A DNA stretch of 20,275 nt from a virus. The notes under the pieces are model-generated. The model made no database searches. It was not told where the DNA came from and saw nothing but the letters and a program-made list of their open reading frames with translations. Shown piece after piece: positions 1 through 18,867 of the stretch. Position 1 is the first letter of the stretch. Each line of letters starts with the position of its first letter. The translations under genes and the position numbers were made by a program. The stretch lies in the IMG/VR virus record IMGVR_UViG_3300024264_001571, positions 1-20,275 of that record; one strand, 5' to 3'.

Positions 1-62
1 CTCAAATAGGAGATTTCGTTGGCCATGCCCAGAACAATGTTCCTTTTTAAACAGTGTATCTA
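1..62 (-). other. Probable intervening segment between tmRNA halves
   Basis: In permuted tmRNA genes a spacer that is cut out by RNA processing separates the CCA end of the acceptor piece from the 5' end of the coding piece. These 62 bases follow the CCA end directly and hold no open frame of note and no clear tag-peptide frame. The role is inferred from position only. Confidence 0.4.
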
Positions 63-126
63 TGGTGGAGTCGCCGGGTACCGCCCCCGGGTCCAGTATA
101 GCGTTTGAATTGCTTCAACGTTACAT
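63..126 (-). ncRNA. ssrA: Acceptor half of a permuted (two-piece, alphaproteobacterial-type) tmRNA; coding half lies beyond the left edge
   Basis: Read on the minus strand, the segment ends in an encoded CCA at 65-63, preceded by the acceptor strand CGACTCC (73-67) and a T-arm-like hairpin: CCGGG (90-86), seven-base loop GGCGGTA, CCCGG (78-74). This acceptor and T-arm layout, with a T loop lacking TTCGA, matches what I know of alphaproteobacterial tmRNA; it does not match a normal tRNA. A small hairpin with a GCAA loop (TTGAA/TTCAA) lies near the 5' end. A strong promoter begins transcription near 125, so only about 63 nt precede CCA. That is too short for a one-piece tmRNA but right for the acceptor piece of a circularly permuted one. 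The partner 5' acceptor strand (GGGGTCG or similar) is not found in positions 1-62, so the coding half should lie past the edge. tmRNA rescues stalled ribosomes and tags the nascent protein for degradation. Confidence 0.75.
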
Positions 127-131
127 ATATA

Positions 132-160
132 TTTATACACTAGTTTCTAGTGTTTGTCAA
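132..160 (-). promoter_or_regulatory. sigma70-like promoter of the tmRNA, overlapping a late-promoter motif
   Basis: On the minus strand a perfect TTGACA (160-155) is followed after 17 bases by TATAAA (137-132). The -10 is part of the octamer TATAAATA (137-130), which is the T4-type late promoter motif, so the RNA may be made both early by host-type polymerase and late. The -35 contains the stop codon (TGA, 159-157) of the upstream gene. Confidence 0.75.
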
Positions 161-1950: not shown

Positions 1951-2241
1951 CTAAACTACTGAAATTCCAGATGTCTGCGAAGTGTATTGCTTACTAATTT
2001 CACCTTCAGTTTTTGCAACACAACTTACTGAAGTTGCTTGTAAAACAAATTTGGCCTCAGGTGATACACTAAACATAAACGGAGCAAGTCCTAGTCCTTG
2101 TTGTTGCATAATTAATACCATTGGCTTTTTTAGTGTAAAAGATTTATCATCTTCTTTTTCTAAGCGAGCAACAATTTCTTCGCCTGAACTTAATTTTAGA
2201 GACACGTTGTCTCCTACTTTGTATGGTGCTTCAATTAACAT
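1951..2241 (-). CDS. Sm-like (LSm/Hfq-fold) protein candidate, 96 aa
   Basis: Residues 8-45 read as the strands of an Sm barrel: KVGDNVSLKLSSGEEIVARL, a bend, then EKEDDKSFTLKKPMVL. This resembles the Sm1 motif, in which a strand, a Gly turn and a second strand precede an acidic loop. A Sm-like protein of putative cyanophage origin has been structurally described, and this protein looks of that type; that assignment comes from memory and fold pattern, not a search. The remaining half is Gln/Gly/Ser-rich. Sm-like rings bind RNA, but no target is known. The start overlaps the glutaredoxin stop (TAATG), so it is co-translated with nrdB and glutaredoxin. The HAD operon promoter follows at once. 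Confidence 0.72.
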   Translation of the reverse strand: MLIEAPYKVGDNVSLKLSSGEEIVARLEKEDDKSFTLKKPMVLIMQQQGLGLAPFMFSVSPEAKFVLQATSVSCVAKTEGEISKQYTSQTSGISVV

Positions 2242-2492
2242 TATAGTGTTAGTCCTGTTCCGTTGTAACCTGTTTCTTCTAGGTACGTACCTAGTTTGTC
2301 GTATCCGCCAATGCTTGTACCGTTTATTTTTATCTGTGGAAAGGTACGTGCTCCAGGGAACATCTCTAGTACTTCTTCACGAGTAAAGTCTGTACCAAGT
2401 TGCTTGTATGTGTATTTTAATTGTCTTTGCTCACAAAGTGCCTTTGCTCTATCACAGAAGGGACACTGTGTCTTGCCATAAATTTCAATCAT
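2241..2492 (-). CDS. Glutaredoxin
   Basis: An 83-residue classical glutaredoxin. The active-site CPFC is at residues 10-13, the cis-proline motif TFPQI at 50-54 and the glutathione-binding GGYD at 62-65. It should reduce ribonucleotide reductase (and other disulfides) with glutathione, as phage T4 NrdC does. The ATG overlaps the nrdB stop by four bases (ATGA), and its own stop overlaps the next start, so production is coupled to NrdB. That placement makes the reductase its likely main partner. Confidence 0.93.
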   Translation of the reverse strand: MIEIYGKTQCPFCDRAKALCEQRQLKYTYKQLGTDFTREEVLEMFPGARTFPQIKINGTSIGGYDKLGTYLEETGYNGTGLTL

Positions 2493-3619
2493 AAACTAAA
2501 TCCTTTAAATGTGTCTTCGCCTACATCCTGCTTGGTACCGCCGCTTACATAACTTGTAATTTCAGTTTCTTGCGGAGCAACTTGTACATCTGCACCTGAA
2601 ATCCATTTCTGTGTCCACGGTAAAGGATTAGCTTGTGAAGTAGTGTATGGGCTTTTTAGATTTACGTTAGTCATTCGACGTGTGCAAATCCATTCAATGT
2701 ATCCACTCAACAACTCTGTGTTAAGTCCAATCATTGATCCATCTTTGAACAAATACTCTGCCCAAGCCTTCTCCTGATCAACTGCATCAACAAACATTTG
2801 AACGCATGCTTCTTCTGTTTCAGCTGCAATCTTTACATAGTCTGGATCGTCTTTCTTAAGAATCTTTAGCAACATTTGTGTACTTGCTAGGTGCAAGTTT
2901 TCATCACGGGCAATAAGTTTAATAATCTTAGCATTGCCTTCCATTTGCTTCATCTCTGCAAACGCCCAACTACATGCAAAGCTTACATAGAAACGCACAC
3001 CTTCTAGAATGTTTACACTCATTAGTGTAAGCCACAACAATTTCTTTAGCTCATAAAGATTAACTGTAATCTTCTTGCCGTTAACTGTATGTGTTCCTTC
3101 GCCTAGCAACTTGTACCAGCGTGTAGTTTCAATTAAGTCATCGTAGTACTTTGAGATGTCTCCAGCACAGTCTGCAATCTCTGCAATGTCCATCATCTCG
3201 TCAAAGATTTTACTAGGGTTGCTGTACACGTTACGAATAATATGTGTGTACGAACGTGAGTGGATTGTTTCGGAGAACGTCCATGTTTGGATCCAGTTCT
3301 CAATCTCTGGCAGTGAAACAATAGGAGCAAATGCTTCTACTGGCGCACGACCTTGTACACTATCTAGTAGAATCTGACGCTTCAAGTTACTTGTAAAGAT
3401 GTGACGCTCGTGTTCGCTAAGAGATTTAAAATCTTTGCTGTCTTTGGTTACATCAACTTCTTCAGGACGCCAAAAGAATCCTAGTTGCTTGTCTGTAAGT
3501 CCGTCAAAACTTTTGTACTTTAGCGTGTCATAACGCTGGATTGTAGGACCGCCCGTTGGATCCAAAAATGCTAATACTTTTGTGTGGTCTGCTTTATTTT
3601 CAGTGTTAAAAACGCTCAT
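2489..3619 (-). CDS. nrdB: Ribonucleoside-diphosphate reductase class Ia, beta subunit (NrdB)
   Basis: A 376-residue R2 protein carrying the diiron-tyrosyl radical cofactor. The ligands are all present and shifted by +2 from the E. coli protein: Asp86, Glu117 and His120 with radical Tyr124 in ETIHSRSYTH, Glu206 in ILEGVRF, Glu240 and His243 in RDENLH. The C-terminal tail (EDTFKGFSL) is of the kind that docks on NrdA. A Tyr radical rather than a Phe variant marks class Ia/Ib chemistry. The closeness to enterobacterial NrdB motifs is striking. It lies 69 bases after nrdA but has its own promoter, so it can be made separately. It is followed by coupled glutaredoxin and Sm-like genes. Confidence 0.97.
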   Translation of the reverse strand: MSVFNTENKADHTKVLAFLDPTGGPTIQRYDTLKYKSFDGLTDKQLGFFWRPEEVDVTKDSKDFKSLSEHERHIFTSNLKRQILLDSVQGRAPVEAFAPIVSLPEIENWIQTWTFSETIHSRSYTHIIRNVYSNPSKIFDEMMDIAEIADCAGDISKYYDDLIETTRWYKLLGEGTHTVNGKKITVNLYELKKLLWLTLMSVNILEGVRFYVSFACSWAFAEMKQMEGNAKIIKLIARDENLHLASTQMLLKILKKDDPDYVKIAAETEEACVQMFVDAVDQEKAWAEYLFKDGSMIGLNTELLSGYIEWICTRRMTNVNLKSPYTTSQANPLPWTQKWISGADVQVAPQETEITSYVSGGTKQDVGEDTFKGFSL

Positions 3620-3688: not shown

Positions 3689-5983
3689 TTAAATTGTGCA
3701 ACCTTCGCAATCTTCCTCGTCTACTTCAACGACTTCAAGTTCGCCCATCATCTTGTTAACATCAACTTCGCCTTGTCCGTCATTGGTGTTGAAGTAATAT
3801 AACTGCTTGCCGCCTAGCTTGTAGAACATCAAAAGATGCTGTAACATTGTGCTCATTGGAATCTTTTCATCTTCAAAGAAGATTGGATTGTAGCTAGTAT
3901 TTACACTAACGCCTTGATCAATATATTTCTGTAGCACAGCCATAATCTTAATATAACCTTCTGGTGACTTCTGATCCCACAGCAAGTCATACTTGTTTTT
4001 TAAACGCTTATACTCAGGTACAACTTGCTTTAGTACACCGTGCTTGCTCTGCTTGATACTAATTAAACTACGTGGTGGTTCAATACCGTTTGTAGCGTTA
4101 GCAATCTGTGCGCTTGTTTCTGCAGGCATTAGAGCCATTAGCGTACTGTTACGAATGCCTGTATCTTTTAGCTGTGCTCTAAGTGTATCCCAATCCATGC
4201 GCTCAACATGCGGAACCAATTCATCTAAGTCTTTCTTGTATGTTTGGTTAGGTGTAATACCGTGTCCGTACTTTGTTTCCATGTTGCCACTTGGTGCGCC
4301 GAACTCTGTTGCAAGGTCAGCACTTGCTTTAATCAAGTAGTAACTCCAAGCTTCTGCCCATTCGTCTACAAGTGCAAGTCCATCTGCATCAATATTCTGA
4401 TAGTTTAAGTCATGCTTGGCTAACCAATATGCAAAGTTAATAATGCCAACGCCTAAAGGACGGCGCTTCTCTGTAGATAACTGTGCTGCTAGGATTGGAT
4501 AGTTCTGGTAGCTTAGTAGTGCATCAAGTCCACGTACTGCTAAACGACATACACGTTCAAAGTCTGCTGGAGTACGAATGTTGCCCCAGTTGATTGCACT
4601 AAGAGTACATAGGCTAATCTCGCCTTCTGGATCGTTTAGATCTTTAAGCGGCTTGGTTGGTAAATCAATCTCTGCACACAAGTTGCTCTGTTTAATAGGC
4701 GCAACATCAGGAAGGAATGCACCGTGATCGTTAGCATTGTCTACATTCTGCAAGTAAATACGTCCTGTGTTCTTACGCTCTTCCATAAAGCTACTAAACA
4801 ATTCACTTGCTGCAATAGTCTTCTTGCGTAGTCGTGTGTTGCGCTCTGCTGTTTCGTATAGTTCACGGAACTTGTCTTGGTCTGCAAAGAACGCATCATA
4901 CAATCCAGGCACATCTGCAGGCGAGAACAAAGTTATATCGCCGCCTGTTACTAGTCTTTCATACATCAGCTTGTTGAACTGTACACCGTAGTCCATGTGT
5001 CGTACACGGTTCTCTTCGGTGCCTTTGTTGTTCTTTAGCACTAGCATGTCTTCTACTTCAAGGTGCCATACAGGGTAATATATAGTTGCTGCGCCGCCAC
5101 GTACACCGCCTTGGCTACATGACTTTACCGCACTTTGGAAGTGCTTGTAGAAAGGAATGATTCCTGTGTGATAAGCGTCACCTTTACGTATGGGGGAGCC
5201 GATAGCACGGATACTTCCTCCACCAATCCCAATGCCTGCCTTTTGTGAAACATACTTAACAACTGCGGCTGCTGTAGCATTGATGCTATCTAAGCTATCG
5301 TCTGTTTCAATAAGCACACAACTTGAGAACTGACGCTGTGGTGTACGCACTCCTGCCATAACAGGTGTAGGCAAACTAATGTCGTGTAAGCTAATAGCAT
5401 CGTAATAATCTTTTACCCATTTCAAACGGGAACTAGCTGGATAGTCTTGGAATAAACTTGCTGCAATAAGAATATAGCACATCTGCGGTGTTTCAAATAT
5501 TTCGCCGCTTACTCTATTCTGACATAGATACTTGCCACGTAGCTGCTCCATAGCAACATACGTTAAGTTTTCATCACGCTCGTGTTTGATAAATGCATTA
5601 ATACTATCCCACTCTTCGTCACTATACTTTGTAACAAGTTCTGAATCGTAAAACCCACTTTCGGTATTGCGGTCAACTAGTTTTTTTACATGCCAAGGTT
5701 CAAAGCCGCCGAAAACTTCTTTGCGCAACGCATAGTTAACTAATCTGCCACCAACATATTGATAGTTAGGAGTTTCTGCGCTGATAAGATCAGCGGCAGC
5801 TTTGATTAGTGTTTCTTGGATCTCTTTACTAGTTACACCGTTATAAAACTGTATCTGACTTTTAAGTTCAACTTCACTTGGGCTTACTCCAGTAATATCT
5901 TCACATGCATAAAAAACAACCTTATGTAGTTTTTCAATATCTAGTGGCTCTTTCTGCCCGTCTCGCTTAGTGACTTGAATCAT
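3689..5983 (-). CDS. nrdA: Ribonucleoside-diphosphate reductase class Ia, alpha subunit (NrdA)
   Basis: A 764-residue R1 protein, close to E. coli NrdA in length and sequence. It reduces ribonucleoside diphosphates to deoxy forms. An ATP-cone fills residues 1-90 (starting VTKRDGQ), so dATP/ATP activity control is probably retained. Active-site residues are Cys222 (QFSSCVL), Asn434, Cys436 and Glu438 (NLCAEI) and Cys459 (SLCTLS). The radical-path tyrosine pair is in LYYFNTND near the end, and the C-terminal reducing pair is Cys759/Cys762 (CEGC). No intein or split is seen. The ATG has an AAGGACG ribosome site, and a TATAAATA late motif sits upstream. nrdB follows after 69 bases. Confidence 0.98.
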   Translation of the reverse strand: MIQVTKRDGQKEPLDIEKLHKVVFYACEDITGVSPSEVELKSQIQFYNGVTSKEIQETLIKAAADLISAETPNYQYVGGRLVNYALRKEVFGGFEPWHVKKLVDRNTESGFYDSELVTKYSDEEWDSINAFIKHERDENLTYVAMEQLRGKYLCQNRVSGEIFETPQMCYILIAASLFQDYPASSRLKWVKDYYDAISLHDISLPTPVMAGVRTPQRQFSSCVLIETDDSLDSINATAAAVVKYVSQKAGIGIGGGSIRAIGSPIRKGDAYHTGIIPFYKHFQSAVKSCSQGGVRGGAATIYYPVWHLEVEDMLVLKNNKGTEENRVRHMDYGVQFNKLMYERLVTGGDITLFSPADVPGLYDAFFADQDKFRELYETAERNTRLRKKTIAASELFSSFMEERKNTGRIYLQNVDNANDHGAFLPDVAPIKQSNLCAEIDLPTKPLKDLNDPEGEISLCTLSAINWGNIRTPADFERVCRLAVRGLDALLSYQNYPILAAQLSTEKRRPLGVGIINFAYWLAKHDLNYQNIDADGLALVDEWAEAWSYYLIKASADLATEFGAPSGNMETKYGHGITPNQTYKKDLDELVPHVERMDWDTLRAQLKDTGIRNSTLMALMPAETSAQIANATNGIEPPRSLISIKQSKHGVLKQVVPEYKRLKNKYDLLWDQKSPEGYIKIMAVLQKYIDQGVSVNTSYNPIFFEDEKIPMSTMLQHLLMFYKLGGKQLYYFNTNDGQGEVDVNKMMGELEVVEVDEEDCEGCTI

Positions 5984-6020: not shown

Positions 6021-6438
6021 TGCAGTTAGTCATGTCGTAGACTAGATGCGGTTTATACTTTTTAGCAAATTTTTCATACGTTAGTATTATTTTTTCGCTG
6101 CCTAGTGCCCAATTCTTATCTAAAACAAGATGGTACAGATAACCTTTTTCATCATCTGTACTGATATGTATCTCAAATTCTGAACCTGTAAAACGTTCTG
6201 TTAACTGTAAAGAAAAGCAGTAACCTAGTACACGAGTAAAGGAGCAATATTGGTTTTCTTGTAATAGTTCCCACGGAGAAGGCCAACATGCCTGGTCCCA
6301 TGGATCAGTATTTAGTGATGAATTAGGAGATGTACTGTAAAAACTAACAGTATCCTCTAAAGGTGTCTGAGATTGTTCAAGATGATTTCTAAACTCTGAC
6401 CAGAGTATAAGTTGTTCTTCATAATTTTTATCAAACAT
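6016..6438 (-). CDS. Hypothetical protein coupled to the tail fibre, 140 aa
   Basis: No family is assigned with certainty. The N-terminal third is acidic and helical, the middle holds DPWDQACWPSPWELL and a hydrophobic VLGYCFSLQL stretch, and the C-terminal third is mixed alpha/beta. The TPWEL/SPWELL type of motif occurs, as I recall, in conserved small proteins of marine T4-like phages. Its ATG overlaps the tail-fibre stop (TAATG). Strict coupling to a large beta-helix fibre suggests a fibre assembly factor or chaperone, or a fibre-associated structural protein; this is inference from position alone. There is no signal peptide. Confidence 0.78.
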   Translation of the reverse strand: MFDKNYEEQLILWSEFRNHLEQSQTPLEDTVSFYSTSPNSSLNTDPWDQACWPSPWELLQENQYCSFTRVLGYCFSLQLTERFTGSEFEIHISTDDEKGYLYHLVLDKNWALGSEKIILTYEKFAKKYKPHLVYDMTNCI

Positions 6439-8318
6439 TAAATCACTATTTGTTTTGTTTTGACTCTAAACTTCATTCTTGTAGCCGATGTCGATGACAA
6501 ATCTGATACATTGCTTTTTACCACAATAGTTTCGTTGTCTCCGTCTCCGTCTATATCATCTATTATAGCATCAAAACTAACACTGTCAACATATATTTCG
6601 TCTCCTGCGTAATCGTAGTCGTCGGAAACAGTAATGTTAGAACCGCTAGCATCTGTAGATATTTTTAATGTTCCTGATCTTACGGCAGTATAGCCACTTG
6701 ACCCTTGGGCAATATAATCTATTACAAAACTTTGATTTGCAAGGTTAGGCAATCTAAAGATTGTTTGAGACTGTCCGTCTCTTATAGTAATTGCATGTTC
6801 AAATCCCCACTCAAAATTACACGGTCCGGTAACTTCCGGAATGTATGGCACTTGAGTAATAATAGATGACAATATACTGTAACCAATAGTGCCGCTAGTT
6901 AGGTGAGGAATATTTACTGAAAATTGCGTAGAGCTATCTACACTTACAACTGTTACAGTAGATGCACCTAGTTCGCCTGTTCCTGTGTCAACTACTACCA
7001 GTTGTCCAGGAACAATACTGCTAGTGTCAGCTGTAACAAGCCTAACTTCGCCTGCATTAATTGTAGCAGTGCCTGTAATGATAGTACCCTGTGTATAGGA
7101 CAATACTTTAGTTCTAGTAAAGAAGTCGCTGACACTTTCATTGCCAAGTTTAGCAAAGGTAATTACGGGATAAACTGGTTGTGCGTCTGATCCTCCGTCG
7201 TTACCACATGTAATAAATCTGTTGTTTCTACTTACGTTGTATGTTCCTTCAGTAATTAATAATGCTTCTCTGTTACAGTTCTCAAAAACACACTCTGCAA
7301 AAATGTTATTGTGTGGACCAGTAGCAGTACCGTTTGCTTCATTTCCGTCAATAAGCATATCTTTACCAAATGCTACACCGTATGCAAGATTACTAAAGTT
7401 AGATGTTGTAATTGTATTGTCGTTGATATCCCAGTTTGAAACAACGCCATACGCAAAACCATCTACATGACAATTAGAAAATTCATTTCGAACTGTTTCG
7501 ACACCGCCATTTTTGCTGTTTAAACTTAGTCCGATATCAAAAGTGTCACTGCTATCTACTGGTACTCCGTCAGTGCTTGTCCAAATTCCTGCAATTGTAA
7601 GATTTTCAAAGTAGCTATCACGACAGCTTTGAAGTACAAGGCCTGACGATACACTTGTTGTTTGTAATGTCATGCCTTCTAAACGTATATTTCTTGCTTG
7701 CGTATTATACTCTCCATTAAGGACATAGCTTCCAGGTGTACTTTCGTCACTAACTGTAGTAAACACACTCTTCTCGGCTGTCTCTTGCACGATAATAGTT
7801 TTACCTGCTCCGTCGCCTATTATTGTTGCATGAGGAGGAATATATATTGTATCTGTAATTCTATATGTGCCTGCGTTAATTCTTAGTAATACTCTGTCAC
7901 CTACATTTGATTCGCTGCCATTATTAAGATATAATTGATCTACAGCACGTTGTAATAATGCCGTTGCGTCTTGTGTATTTTTGCCTGTTGCTCCAAAAGA
8001 ACGAATACTTATATTGTCGTCAAGTCTTTGTTGCAGTGTTCTTACAACTGGGTTAGATGAATCAGTACCTGTTTGAACTGATCCTGTACCTTCTTTGTAA
8101 ATATAATCTTTTGCAATTTCAAATAAATCATCACGATCAGTTAAAATCTTTGTATTGCCAACTTGCGGTGCACCTTCTGCTACTGAGCCGTTCCCAATGT
8201 AAAGTTCTTGTGAATCTATGGCCCAGCCAAGCTCACCCGAAGCCAATTGAGGTAGACCAGATGCAGTATTTTTTCTGCCTCGTCTTAGTTGTATGCGACT
8301 GATTTGTACGACTGCCAC
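6438..8318 (-). CDS. Tail fibre/tailspike with right-handed beta-helix (pectate-lyase-like) domain
   Basis: A 626-residue protein. Residues 5-70 form the phage fibre N-terminal domain (QLRRG, then LASGELGWAID and LYIGNG) that joins fibres to the tail. From about 105 (IRSFGATG, then NAGTYRITDTIYIPPHATIIGDG) to roughly 400 it is a pectate-lyase-3-type beta-helix with Asn/Ser/Gly-rich coils. The C-terminal 200 residues are beta-rich, Thr/Val/Asp-heavy and probably receptor-binding. A sugar-degrading active site cannot be proven from sequence, so it may be an enzyme or only a binding spike. The start is GTG with an AGGAG site eight bases upstream. A CATAAATAC late motif precedes it, and a 140-residue coupled protein follows. 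Confidence 0.88.
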   Translation of the reverse strand: MAVVQISRIQLRRGRKNTASGLPQLASGELGWAIDSQELYIGNGSVAEGAPQVGNTKILTDRDDLFEIAKDYIYKEGTGSVQTGTDSSNPVVRTLQQRLDDNISIRSFGATGKNTQDATALLQRAVDQLYLNNGSESNVGDRVLLRINAGTYRITDTIYIPPHATIIGDGAGKTIIVQETAEKSVFTTVSDESTPGSYVLNGEYNTQARNIRLEGMTLQTTSVSSGLVLQSCRDSYFENLTIAGIWTSTDGVPVDSSDTFDIGLSLNSKNGGVETVRNEFSNCHVDGFAYGVVSNWDINDNTITTSNFSNLAYGVAFGKDMLIDGNEANGTATGPHNNIFAECVFENCNREALLITEGTYNVSRNNRFITCGNDGGSDAQPVYPVITFAKLGNESVSDFFTRTKVLSYTQGTIITGTATINAGEVRLVTADTSSIVPGQLVVVDTGTGELGASTVTVVSVDSSTQFSVNIPHLTSGTIGYSILSSIITQVPYIPEVTGPCNFEWGFEHAITIRDGQSQTIFRLPNLANQSFVIDYIAQGSSGYTAVRSGTLKISTDASGSNITVSDDYDYAGDEIYVDSVSFDAIIDDIDGDGDNETIVVKSNVSDLSSTSATRMKFRVKTKQIVI

Positions 8319-8354: not shown

Positions 8355-9054
8355 CGAACTTTTCGTAATACATATACACTCTATTATACCATTCGTTGCG
8401 CCAGTCATCATACTCGTGCGGCCATACATCAAACTGCTGATATGTTTCGCCACCAAGTTCCATTCCGTCATCTCCGCGGCTACACATAAAGATATGTCCT
8501 TCACGAATGTTAGTGCCGTAGATTTCGTTGTGTGCTTCTGCGTATGCTACTAGCTGTAAGAAGTAGTTCTGTACATACTCTAGCTTCTTAGGCTTGTTAG
8601 TTTGCTTAAAATCCATTATGCAGGGCTGTCCTTTGTACTGTCCTACTAGGTCAGTTGTGCCTGCATACATCTGCGGAACATAAAGAGCAACTTCACTACC
8701 CCATATCTCATCTACATCGCCCATTGCGTGTTCTAAGACTTGCTGTGCCATTGCGTGTGCTTTTTTAGCAAATGGATTGCTACCCGGAGTAGGCATTACA
8801 CCTGTCTCAACATAGTCTTCCAAATACTTGTGCATACGTGTGCCAACACCTGCGGCTTCTGTAGTAATTTCTCGTGCTTTGGTTTCGCCTACACGTTTGC
8901 GCCAAGCAATCAATCCTGACTTATCACTTGTAGCATCAAGGATAGTTGTAACACTTGCCACAGCACCTCCATCGGGTGTCATGTATTTGCGTTTGCCGTC
9001 AATCTGCTTTCGTGAAATTGGTGTGTAGTCGTACTTCTTTTGAATTAGCGTCAA
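8350..9054 (-). CDS. PD-(D/E)XK (RecB/Cas4-like) exonuclease
   Basis: A 234-residue nuclease of the PD-(D/E)XK fold. His75 lies in GTRMHKYLE, the metal-binding Asp135 in AGTTDLVG, and Asp148-x-Lys150 in IMDFKQ; a Gln-x3-Tyr motif (QLVAYAEA, about 167-171) follows. This order is that of RecB-type nucleases. Only two cysteines are present, so unlike Cas4 or AddB it should not carry an Fe-S cluster. Likely roles are degradation of host DNA or recombination; these are inferred. The start is a TTG that overlaps the NifU stop (TTGA). A strong AGAGGAG site at the right distance supports it over later ATGs. Confidence 0.85.
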   Translation of the reverse strand: MTLIQKKYDYTPISRKQIDGKRKYMTPDGGAVASVTTILDATSDKSGLIAWRKRVGETKAREITTEAAGVGTRMHKYLEDYVETGVMPTPGSNPFAKKAHAMAQQVLEHAMGDVDEIWGSEVALYVPQMYAGTTDLVGQYKGQPCIMDFKQTNKPKKLEYVQNYFLQLVAYAEAHNEIYGTNIREGHIFMCSRGDDGMELGGETYQQFDVWPHEYDDWRNEWYNRVYMYYEKFA

Positions 9055-9398
9055 TCTTTAGACTCCTCTGGCAGATTATACTCAGCTTCCCATCCAGCTT
9101 GCCCGAATGGATCATTGTTCATGTAATAAGGACTTACATTTGAAAACGGATCATCAATGCCTTCTACTGCATTTACTTCGGGAATTAAACTTGTCATCAT
9201 TTGCTCAATGCCATGTTTGAGTGTCATAGTACTGCCAGCACACCCTGAGCATGCACCGCTTAACTGCACAGTTACAACGCTGTTTTCAAAGCTGACAAAG
9301 TTTACTTCGCCGCCGTGTTGTGCTACTGCTGGGGTTACATACTGTTCCATTACTTCTGTAATGTTTTTAACTACATCTTCTTGCGATCGTTCAGTCAT
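9051..9398 (-). CDS. NifU C-terminal-domain Fe-S scaffold protein
   Basis: A 115-residue protein with one NifU C-terminal (Nfu) domain at residues 8-85. The cluster-binding CxxC is Cys50/Cys53 in GACSGCAGSTMTL. The last 30 residues are an acidic tail with many Pro, Asn and Tyr, not part of the usual domain. Nfu proteins carry a [4Fe-4S] cluster between two monomers and hand it to target enzymes. The frame extends to 9431, but that would overlap the -10 box. The ATG at 9398 with TAGGAGC upstream is the clear start. It is coupled to the nuclease gene, though the nuclease lacks cluster cysteines. Confidence 0.93.
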   Translation of the reverse strand: MTERSQEDVVKNITEVMEQYVTPAVAQHGGEVNFVSFENSVVTVQLSGACSGCAGSTMTLKHGIEQMMTSLIPEVNAVEGIDDPFSNVSPYYMNNDPFGQAGWEAEYNLPEESKD

Positions 9399-9421
9399 AA
9401 AAAAAGCTCCTATTAATGTAT

Positions 9422-9450
9422 ATAATAACATTAAATAGGAGCCTTGTCAA
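9422..9450 (-). promoter_or_regulatory. sigma70-like promoter of the nifU-like gene, flanked by an inverted repeat
   Basis: Minus strand TTGACA (9450-9445), 17-base spacer, TATTAT (9427-9422). An inverted repeat spans 9406-9417 and 9430-9442 (GCTCCTATT...AAT with one extra base). One arm lies in the spacer and the other contains the ribosome site AGGAG. Confidence 0.7.
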
Positions 9451-16439: not shown

Positions 16440-17201
16440 ATGTCTATAACAAAAATGTCTTTTCCTGAGCGTTCATTATTATTTGCTAAACTGTCTAGTA
16501 TTGCGTATAATGATAATGTCAAAGAGGTTAAAAGTCAAGTAAAAAAATTAGGATTCACAACTGTTGAGTTCTATAACAGAGACGGCGCACAAGCATACCG
16601 CTTTATGAACAAAGAAGACTTGGTAATTGCGTGTCGTGGAACACAACCAACAGAGTTTAATGATATCAAAGCAGATCTAAATGCTTTGCCTGTTATTGCT
16701 GAAACAATTAGTAGAGTACACAAAGGATTCAAAGACGAAGTAGACGAACTTTGGCCTATGGTGTGCGAAGATATTGCACGTACAGCTAATGTAGGCAAGA
16801 AGCTATGGATATGCGGACATAGTTTAGGTGCAGCAATGGCAACTATAATGGCCAATCGTTGCGAGTGCGATACAGCACTAAACAATCCAGAGGAACTATA
16901 CACATATGGTTCACCGAGAGTAGGTTGGCCAACATATGTCAAGAGCTTTGGCACTGTACATCACAGATGGAAGAACAACAACGATATAGTTACAACTGTT
17001 CCTCTAGCACTTATGGGCTTTAGACACTGCGGTAATCAGCATTACTTAAATGCATATGGTAACCTTCGTAAGCCTACTGGCTGGCAGATGTTTAAAGATA
17101 AAATGCGTGGCATGTGGATGGGTATCAAGCAAGGTAAGATTGATAACTTCTCAGATCATTCAATGGTTGAATACATTAAGCACATCAGTAAACTAAACTA
17201 A
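16440..17201 (+). CDS. Class 3 lipase (alpha/beta hydrolase)
   Basis: A 253-residue lipase_3 protein and the only clear plus-strand gene. The catalytic triad is visible: Ser128 in GHSLG (126-130), Asp182 in NNDIVTTVP and His240 in [16 protein letters not shown] (154-162) and the oxyanion CRGTQP (65-70) are also typical of the family. There is no signal peptide, so it would act in the cytoplasm or after lysis on membrane lipids. Aid to lysis, or use of host lipids, is inferred. The ATG has an AGGGGG site and a TATAAATAC late motif upstream. Its stop overlaps the prs stop on the other strand by three bases. Confidence 0.93.
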
Positions 17202-18127
17202 AAGAATAAACTACTAACTGACTCTTCATTAGTTACTCGACGAATTGCTTCACCAAACAAAGTCGCGACACTAACCTGTCGTGTCTTTTTGCAGTTCTTA
17301 GGACAACGGTCTGCAATGCTGTCAGTGATTACCAGTTCTGTGAGTACACTCTTCTCAACTTTCTGACATGCTTCGCCACTCAGTACACCATGTGTGATAT
17401 ATGCACGAACACTTAGAGCACCTGCATCCATAATAGCTTTGGCTGCGTTGCATAGTGTACCGCCGCTGTCAATAATATCATCAACTAGAATGGCGTGTTT
17501 GCCTTTAACATCGCCGATCAAGTTCATGACTTCTGACTTGCCCGCTTCTGGACGCATCTTATCTACTATAGCAATGTCTGCATGGAACATGTCTGCAAAC
17601 TTCCTAGCACGAACAACGCCGCCTGCGTCTGGGCTTACAAATACTGTGTCTTCTGCACCTATATTGCGTTTAATGTCTTTGGCAAACACCAAACGGCTTG
17701 TTAAGTCATCAACTGGAATATTAAAGAACCCTTGTATCTGTCCTGCGTGTAAGTCCATTGTAAGCACTCTATCTGCGCCTGCTGTAGTAAGCAAGTCTGC
17801 AATTAGTTTTGCTGTAATAGGTGTCCTACTGGCGCTCTTACGGTCCTGCCTAGCATACCCAAAGTAAGGAATGACTGCTGTGATTCTACTAGCACTTGAA
17901 CGTTTGGCAGCATCAATCATAATCAACAATTCCATTAAACTATCGTTAACTGGAGTAGCAGTTGATTGAATAATGAATACATCTTCTCCGCGAATGTTAT
18001 CTAAAAACTCTACACTTATTTCTCCGTCTGCAAATGTTGCTACTTTAGATGGTACTAGAGTTGCAAAGGTGTTGTCTGCAATCTCCTGTGCTAACACTGG
18101 GTTAGCGTTACCTGCGATGATTTTCAT
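17198..18127 (-). CDS. prs: Ribose-phosphate pyrophosphokinase (PRPP synthetase)
   Basis: A 309-residue class I PRPP synthetase making PRPP from ribose-5-phosphate and ATP. The FADGEI motif is at 32-37, [11 protein letters not shown] at 87-97, the metal-binding [11 protein letters not shown] at 125-135, the flexible-loop Lys190/Arg192 in DKMRP, and the PRPP loop [10 protein letters not shown] at 215-224. The end SSLFF is normal for the family, so it is full length. I choose the ATG at 18127 (AAGGGA upstream) over a TTG two codons earlier that overlaps the preceding stop. PRPP feeds nucleotide and NAD synthesis; other phages carry prs with NAD-salvage genes, but none is in this window. It follows the dehydrogenase-like gene on the same message. 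Confidence 0.97.
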
Positions 18128-18129
18128 TT

Positions 18130-18867
18130 TCAATTAGTTCCCTTTCTTATGTTACTGTTATAGTTAATTGCTTGTTCTAGTATTGATAATTCAACGTTAT
18201 TTCTTTGTGCAGTTTTAACTAATGCCGATGTATCTTTAGGAAAACAGTGTCCGCCAAAGCCACGCTCGTCCGATATAAAACTATGACTGTCGCCGATGCG
18301 TTCGTCCATTGTTGTATAGTGTGCAACGGCTGAATACTCAACATCCAATGCATCGCACAAATCATACATCTGATTAAAGAACGCAACTTTAAGTGCAAGG
18401 AAACTGTTGCGAGCATATTTGGCTAGAATAAGTTCTTCTGGCTCTGCAACTTCTACATTAACACCAAACACATCACGCCAGAAGCCGCAGGAGTTGCCTC
18501 CTATCAACATTAAATCCATGTTCTGCAAGTCTTCTACTGCTGTTGCTGCACGTAGGAACTCTGGCGAAAACGCTATCTGTCTATTAGGAAATGCATCTAC
18601 TAACATATCCCAGCCTTCTACACTAATTGTACTTTTAATTAGAATAGGTACATCCGGTGCTGCTTCGATAACATTAAACACATTGTCCATATGACAACTG
18701 CCATCTTGTCTAGGCGGAGTTGCTACACAAACAATAACTGCGTCAGCATCATCGTAGGAGTTAGTGTATCCTAACTGAGGATCGTTAATAAAAACTTCAT
18801 GTTTAAATTTTAAAACTTCGTAGTGAGCTTTACCAACAAACCCGTATCCTGCAATTAATATTTTCAT
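18130..18867 (-). CDS. Short UDP-glucose/GDP-mannose 6-dehydrogenase-like protein
   Basis: A 245-residue protein. The Rossmann motif GYGFVG is at 7-12, CVATPP near 47-52, SPEFLR at 101-106, a catalytic-type Lys150 in [12 protein letters not shown], and the catalytic cysteine Cys208 in [13 protein letters not shown]-binding and central domains are present, but the C-terminal UDP-binding domain (about 100 residues or more) of the usual 390-450-residue enzyme is missing; the gene ends cleanly and is followed by prs, so it does not look like a random break. It would oxidise a sugar nucleotide twice, for instance for phage or host glycans. Activity without the third domain is uncertain. The longer frame to 18903 overlaps the promoter, so the ATG at 18867 is the start. 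Confidence 0.85.

Follow-up and report, generated by a model that had tools for sequence, protein, structure and literature searches.

The tmRNA locus lies on the minus strand at positions 1-160 of the window, by which we mean the whole 20,275-base virus contig that was analysed, and the record ends at base 1. In the direction of transcription, the locus begins with the -35 element TTGACA (155-160), which is kept among relatives, followed after a 17-base spacer by the T4-type late octamer TATAAATA (130-137), also seen in relatives, with the -10 element TATAAA inside it. The next segment, GTAACGTTGAAGCAATTCAAACGCTATACT (95-128), is the 5′ part of the acceptor-piece RNA and belongs to a conserved leader class; going by the alpha_tmRNA model, its pairing partner would be the 3′ part of the coding piece. 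The T-arm (74-90, from cmscan and folding) has the stem CCGGG/CCCGG and the T loop GGCGGTA, and is followed by the 3′ strand of the acceptor stem, CGACTCC (67-73), and by the ACCA tail (63-66), both recognised by cmscan; T-arm, acceptor strand and CCA together read GGACCCGGGGGCGGTACCCGGCGACTCCACCA (positions 94-63). The last feature is the intervening segment (ITS), of which the window holds the first 62 of 82 bases (1-62), identical at 62/62 positions to those of a related contig, L045. An earlier note on this DNA had described a CCA-ending acceptor and T-arm with a non-TTC T loop downstream of a TTGACA-17-TATAAA promoter, with a late octamer within the -10; all of these are present, the arm at 63-94 and with the loop GGCGGUA, which differs from UUCGANU. 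The figure of 60 bases that it gave for the distance from the promoter does not hold as given, since the -10 lies about 35 bases from the T-arm and about 65 from the CCA end.

The octamer TATAAATA occurs in 84 of 113 distinct upstream regions of relatives, and TTGACN-N17/18-TATAAATA stands at the equivalent place in 81 of them; the remaining phages, which do not have the hybrid promoter, mostly keep a sigma-70-like site. TTGACA-N15-19-TATAAATA was found at none of the 120 bacterial loci among the matches listed. Within the window the tmRNA promoter is the sole hybrid early/late site of its type, and an exact search of other contigs with the window's promoter sequence gave no match.

The locus was compared with the models for permuted alpha-type tmRNA (RF01849 / RF04321). 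The cmscan of the window returned alpha_tmRNA at 35.6 bits (E 3.7e-7) and tmRNA_permuted at 31.6 bits (E 0.0041), both below gathering and with the match truncated at the record edge. The order of the parts is the permuted one, in that a CCA-ending acceptor 3′ strand and T-arm are encoded ahead of the coding part. ARAGORN called no tmRNA in the window and the RF01849 search of the record itself gave chance matches only, in both cases because the gene is cut by the end of the record. A REN-SRE match at window position 18775 scored 21.5 bits, where the cut-off is 41, and was rejected as chance.

Exact copies of the 32-base acceptor arm were found in 93 IMG/VR contigs, and at least 120 contigs from bacterial genomes, for the most part Rhodobacterales, have it too; this recurrence, with that of the promoter at the equivalent place in relatives, shows that the locus is no chance resemblance. 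As a pointer to the host of this phage, the Rhodobacterales-type arm is only a lead. tmRNA genes are common integration sites, and the identity of the 32-mer to many Rhodobacterales tmRNAs could therefore mean that the locus is a prophage attachment-site remnant, in which an integrating element has copied the 3′ end of a host tmRNA gene. We consider this very improbable, because among phages the promoter, leader and coding half are conserved and are unlike their host counterparts, the gene content is T4-like (RNR, exonuclease, PRPP synthetase, virion structural protein), and no integrase was found among the proteins examined. The host two-piece tmRNA of alphaproteobacteria (RF01849; Caulobacter, Rhodobacterales) has the same arrangement as the window, acceptor half, ITS and coding half, and the Rhodobacterales gene shares the 32-base arm, but leader, promoter and coding piece differ from those of the phages, as does the ITS, a 22-28 nt hairpin in the host genes.

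The window shows an acceptor half and nothing beyond it, which is also what would be expected of an orphan half acting as a decoy tRNA-like RNA that inhibits the host tmRNA. There is a precedent for such a molecule in mycobacteriophage DS6A, whose tmRNA consists of the tRNA-like domain only, and a similar molecule strongly inhibits tmRNA (PMC4131195). We give this reading very little credence, as a coding half is present in every readable relative, including the contigs that share the window's 62 ITS bases. Six IMG/VR contigs (L045, L364-L368) carry these bases; in all six the cassette goes on after base 62 as GTTGGCAGTGTATCTTTGAT, is closed by the stem TAGATACACTG/CAGTGTATC, and is followed, after the full 82 nt, by a coding half. 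The window holds the TAGATACACTG arm of this stem, while its partner CAGTGTATC falls beyond the window. L045 has 20 further ITS bases beyond those in the window, followed by GGGGTCG..., the pairing acceptor strand of the coding half; this gives the same acceptor stem as in the window, GGGGTCG/CGACTCC, paired 7/7, and a G3-U70 alanine identity pair for which U70 is present in the window strand CGACUCC and G3 is taken from L045. The two contigs are about 79% identical over window positions 2066-3619 (the nrdB region); L045 itself ends soon after its coding half begins.

In those contigs with the exact arm that are long enough, the coding half is always there, starting TGAT-GGGGTCGAAATAGGATCGAC or a variant, and nearly all relatives with no more than four differences from the window's leader have a coding half that starts GGGGTCGAAATAGGATCGAC. 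Our best guess is that the coding half of the window's phage starts GGGGTCGAAATAGGATCGACTGGTAGTTAATAG, as it mostly does in relatives of its leader class. Complete relatives gave full matches to alpha_tmRNA of 81-142 bits, over gathering; L045, itself truncated, scored 84.9 and 68.1 bits, compared to 35.6 and 31.6 for the window. The closing stem and coding half of the contigs with the same ITS therefore indicate that the gene is complete and that the window merely ends 20 bases short. In our assessment it is highly probable that positions 1-160 hold the promoter together with the acceptor piece of a permuted ssrA gene, itself complete, from an uncultured marine phage of T4-like kind. The reading of the earlier note, a two-piece, circularly permuted tmRNA of alphaproteobacterial type, is supported by cmscan and by the coding halves of relatives, and the GGGGTCG strand that it predicted was found in L045, 20 bases past the window's end. 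Its proposed alpha_tmRNA scan does give a match, although a truncated one below gathering; and the "half" that it saw is real as acceptor half and promoter but, judging from the relatives, belongs to a complete gene that the end of the contig interrupts. In megablast no phage record matched the window as a whole, and with blastn the full gene of a relative found nothing more than fragments among phage isolates, namely in phages of Roseobacter and Rhodobacter and in one unclassified record. Of the 82 exact-match contigs that reach at least into the beginning of the second half, ARAGORN recognised 44, and this standard tool thus misses many such permuted phage tmRNA genes.

Phage-borne two-piece tmRNAs have already been published (Melnitz; PMC9004378). 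The Methylophilales phage Melnitz (MZ577097) resembles the window in being a T4-like marine phage with a permuted alpha-type tmRNA (Rfam matches of 106.7 and 113.4 bits) and in having TTGACA-N17-TATAAATA directly 5′ of it, and differs in its T-arm and in its acceptor stem (GGGGGCG/CGCCTCC). Within the 142-nt ITS of Melnitz lies an unannotated frame of 54 codons, SD-led, that starts MFKWLSKTRLVVITRDYF and extends into the coding piece (L281:15985-16437), whereas the window's ITS has no ORF. A glutamine riboswitch was rejected as content of the Melnitz ITS, as it lies downstream of the gene. Pelagibacter phage Mosig (MT647606) also has a permuted alpha-type tmRNA (67.6 bits), with another T-arm and a short non-coding ITS. 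That the ITS tolerates cargo is known from one with a tRNA-Ala gene and another with a repetitive element (PMC11915505); no protein gene or exchangeable cassette of a phage ITS was found in the passages of that paper that were consulted. The phage permuted tmRNA is a known kind, and the new aspect is the exchangeable, sometimes gene-bearing ITS, the most unusual part of the locus and one that the earlier note had missed.

In the host bacteria the ITS is 22-28 nt long in 105 of 116 measurable loci, and forms a hairpin in Rhodobacterales; in the phages it ranges from 29 to 266 nt, and the 105 distinct phage sequences fall into 55 clusters, or cassette types. At ITS positions 2-9, the arms of the closing stem are 99.1% paired, compared to a mean of 80.3% (maximum 84.3%) in 2000 shuffles of the arms among clusters, and these sequences indicate that the phage ITS is closed by a covarying stem. 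Rfam scans of the cassettes gave no match other than tmRNA, and the cassettes therefore match no known RNA family. A coding role for the window's ITS was rejected, as no ATG frame in the full cassette exceeds 14 codons (shuffle p 0.44). Forms related to this cassette in L380 and L032 have the common ends TGTTT...TTGGCA and part of the core, and suggest that it is a structured RNA. Several distinct and conserved families of ITS RNA cassette, with no Rfam match and apparently structured, were observed in three groups of contigs: L010, L036, L066, L221, L256 and L272; L012, L043, L058 and L063; and L052, L065, L222 and L377-L394.

Other cassettes carry small protein genes. In 13 of the 55 clusters there is an SD-led frame 27 codons long or longer, compared to a mean of 0.85 (maximum 5) in dinucleotide shuffles and to two SD-led frames on the reverse strand of the same clusters. 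In many of the nested genes the SD sequence, AAAGGA or TAAGGA, doubles as the closing stem's 5′ arm, and the TGA of the conserved TGAT provides the stop codon. The ITS of L263 encodes a PGDYG protein (29.2 bits, Pfam cut-off 27; phrog_419, 4e-12). A 62-aa family nested in 30 contigs has a median dN/dS of 0.18 (maximum 0.36, 20 distinct sequences), and the acceptor stem that it splits remains fully paired; outside the ITS, members of this family are free-standing, lie immediately 5′ of the tmRNA promoter, or are found beside tRNA genes. A small protein family of marine phages, MEIIWHILLTVCSGSTC...EYICKPVGS (L283-L362), was likewise observed in ITSs, just 5′ of tmRNA promoters, or between tRNA genes. 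The open-licence papers searched gave no description of ORFs within a phage ITS. It is unusual for the gene of a stable RNA to contain an insert that can be removed and swapped and that in some cases is a protein gene; with this architecture, transcription from a single promoter gives both the ribosome-rescue RNA and a cargo.

The cassettes are shared between otherwise different genes. Genes with GGGGTCG, GGGGCTG and GGGGATG stems, and with differing leaders, carry the window's 82-nt cassette in identical form; it is found with another closing stem in L370, and is the second insert of a tandem in L366 and L368. Another cassette was found behind three stems, and a few compensatory changes are visible in its alignment. 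These shared cassettes lead us to infer ITS exchange between tmRNAs with different acceptor stems. Three different ITS cassettes stand in tandem inside one phage tmRNA gene in L387 (~6500-6830), where the linkers make a GC-rich stem of their own around the middle cassette. In L372 (~3737-3868, minus) the window's cassette lies outside any tmRNA, 3′ of a gene read from its ORF as capsid-like, and is flanked by near-identical, terminator-like direct repeats of 27 bases, TTTGATGGGGGCTACTTTxGTGGCCCC. L372 is the only contig with this insertion site, so it may be a chimaera; an empty site was looked for and none was found.

The junctions always read CCACCA, cassette, TGATGGGG, and since identical cassettes lie between different stems, the shared flanking homology is only about 8 bases. 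Short-homology template switching would explain both the tandem inserts and the L372 repeat. No enzyme of a dedicated mobile element was found; such an element behind the cassettes is possible, and recombination is somewhat favoured over it. Heavy recombination is typical of T4-like phages, and the L366 and L372 junctions share TGATGGGG and CCACCA, which are usable for template switching. The sharing of ITSs could accordingly be plain homologous recombination together with conservation of structured RNAs, the ITS being no special slot and the nested ORFs incidental. We rate this as a serious alternative, at somewhat less than an even chance; it has to accommodate identical 82-nt cassettes between different stems with about 8 bases of homology per side, and the excess of frames (13 against 0.85) and the dN/dS of 0.18 show real genes in the ITS. 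More tentatively still, we propose that the phage ITS is a docking site for mobile cassettes, RNAs or small genes with their own closing stems inserted between ACCA and TGAT, which would move between phages and occasionally elsewhere in their genomes, and whose RNA or protein would be a second product of the tmRNA transcript. Genes of this architecture provide a direct handle on the way in which stretches of 80-270 bases are swapped where the flanks have only about 8 bases in common.

The way in which the window-type tmRNA would work can be outlined from knowledge of the family. Transcription by host sigma-70 RNA polymerase early and with the phage late sigma factor later would produce a single precursor RNA, in which CGACUCC pairs with GGGGUCG and the ITS is looped out on its own stem past an ACCA/UGAU internal loop. 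Host tRNA-processing enzymes would cut after CCA and before GGGG, releasing the ITS; the annealed pieces would be charged with alanine through G3-U70 and then bound by host SmpB, and the charged tmRNA would rescue ribosomes stalled in infection and add a degradation tag specified by the phage. The ITS, removed from the mature RNA and therefore free to vary, would serve as an exchangeable slot, with a small protein gene in some phages and an ORF-less structured RNA cassette in others, including the window. No SmpB gene was found in 13 phage records, Mosig and Melnitz among them, so host SmpB must serve, and a phage tmRNA working with it is the best reading of these genomes. A role in infection with host SmpB was proposed earlier for Melnitz (PMC9004378); the use would probably be ribosome recycling or tagging of host proteins. 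These genes offer a handle on phage use of trans-translation in infection and on the roles of the released cassettes.

The pairing of the relatives agrees with such an outline. The tmRNAs with nested genes (n = 30, chosen with no demand for pairing) have six acceptor-stem types, paired 7/7 in 30/30 cases and all with G3-U70, and in another set, selected on the ends of the cassettes, all acceptor stems but four are 7/7. The tags of 117 relatives comprise 60 distinct sequences, with the endings LAA (97), IAA (10), MAA (8) and EAA (2); the 115 of 117 that end in LAA, IAA or MAA are a count of intact frames and not an independent test, because the tags were picked by a simple rule requiring such endings. 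Unusually long tags of 29-31 residues (AKATINNGEFTFVNFGALNDFAVNEDFALAA) were observed in L007, L073 and L085. The tags of L006 and L018 end in LEAA, with no hydrophobic residue before AA, and might be poorer protease substrates.

Elsewhere in the window, host-like metabolic genes for Fe-S biosynthesis (IscA type, 960-1295), a NifU domain protein (9051-9431) and PRPP synthetase (17198-18133), all on the minus strand, and a class 3 lipase (16440-17201, plus) were observed near nrdA/nrdB and a glutaredoxin-like gene. Positions 6438-8318 (minus) encode a tail-fibre-like protein that combines an N-terminal Mtd domain with a beta helix like that of pectate lyase.
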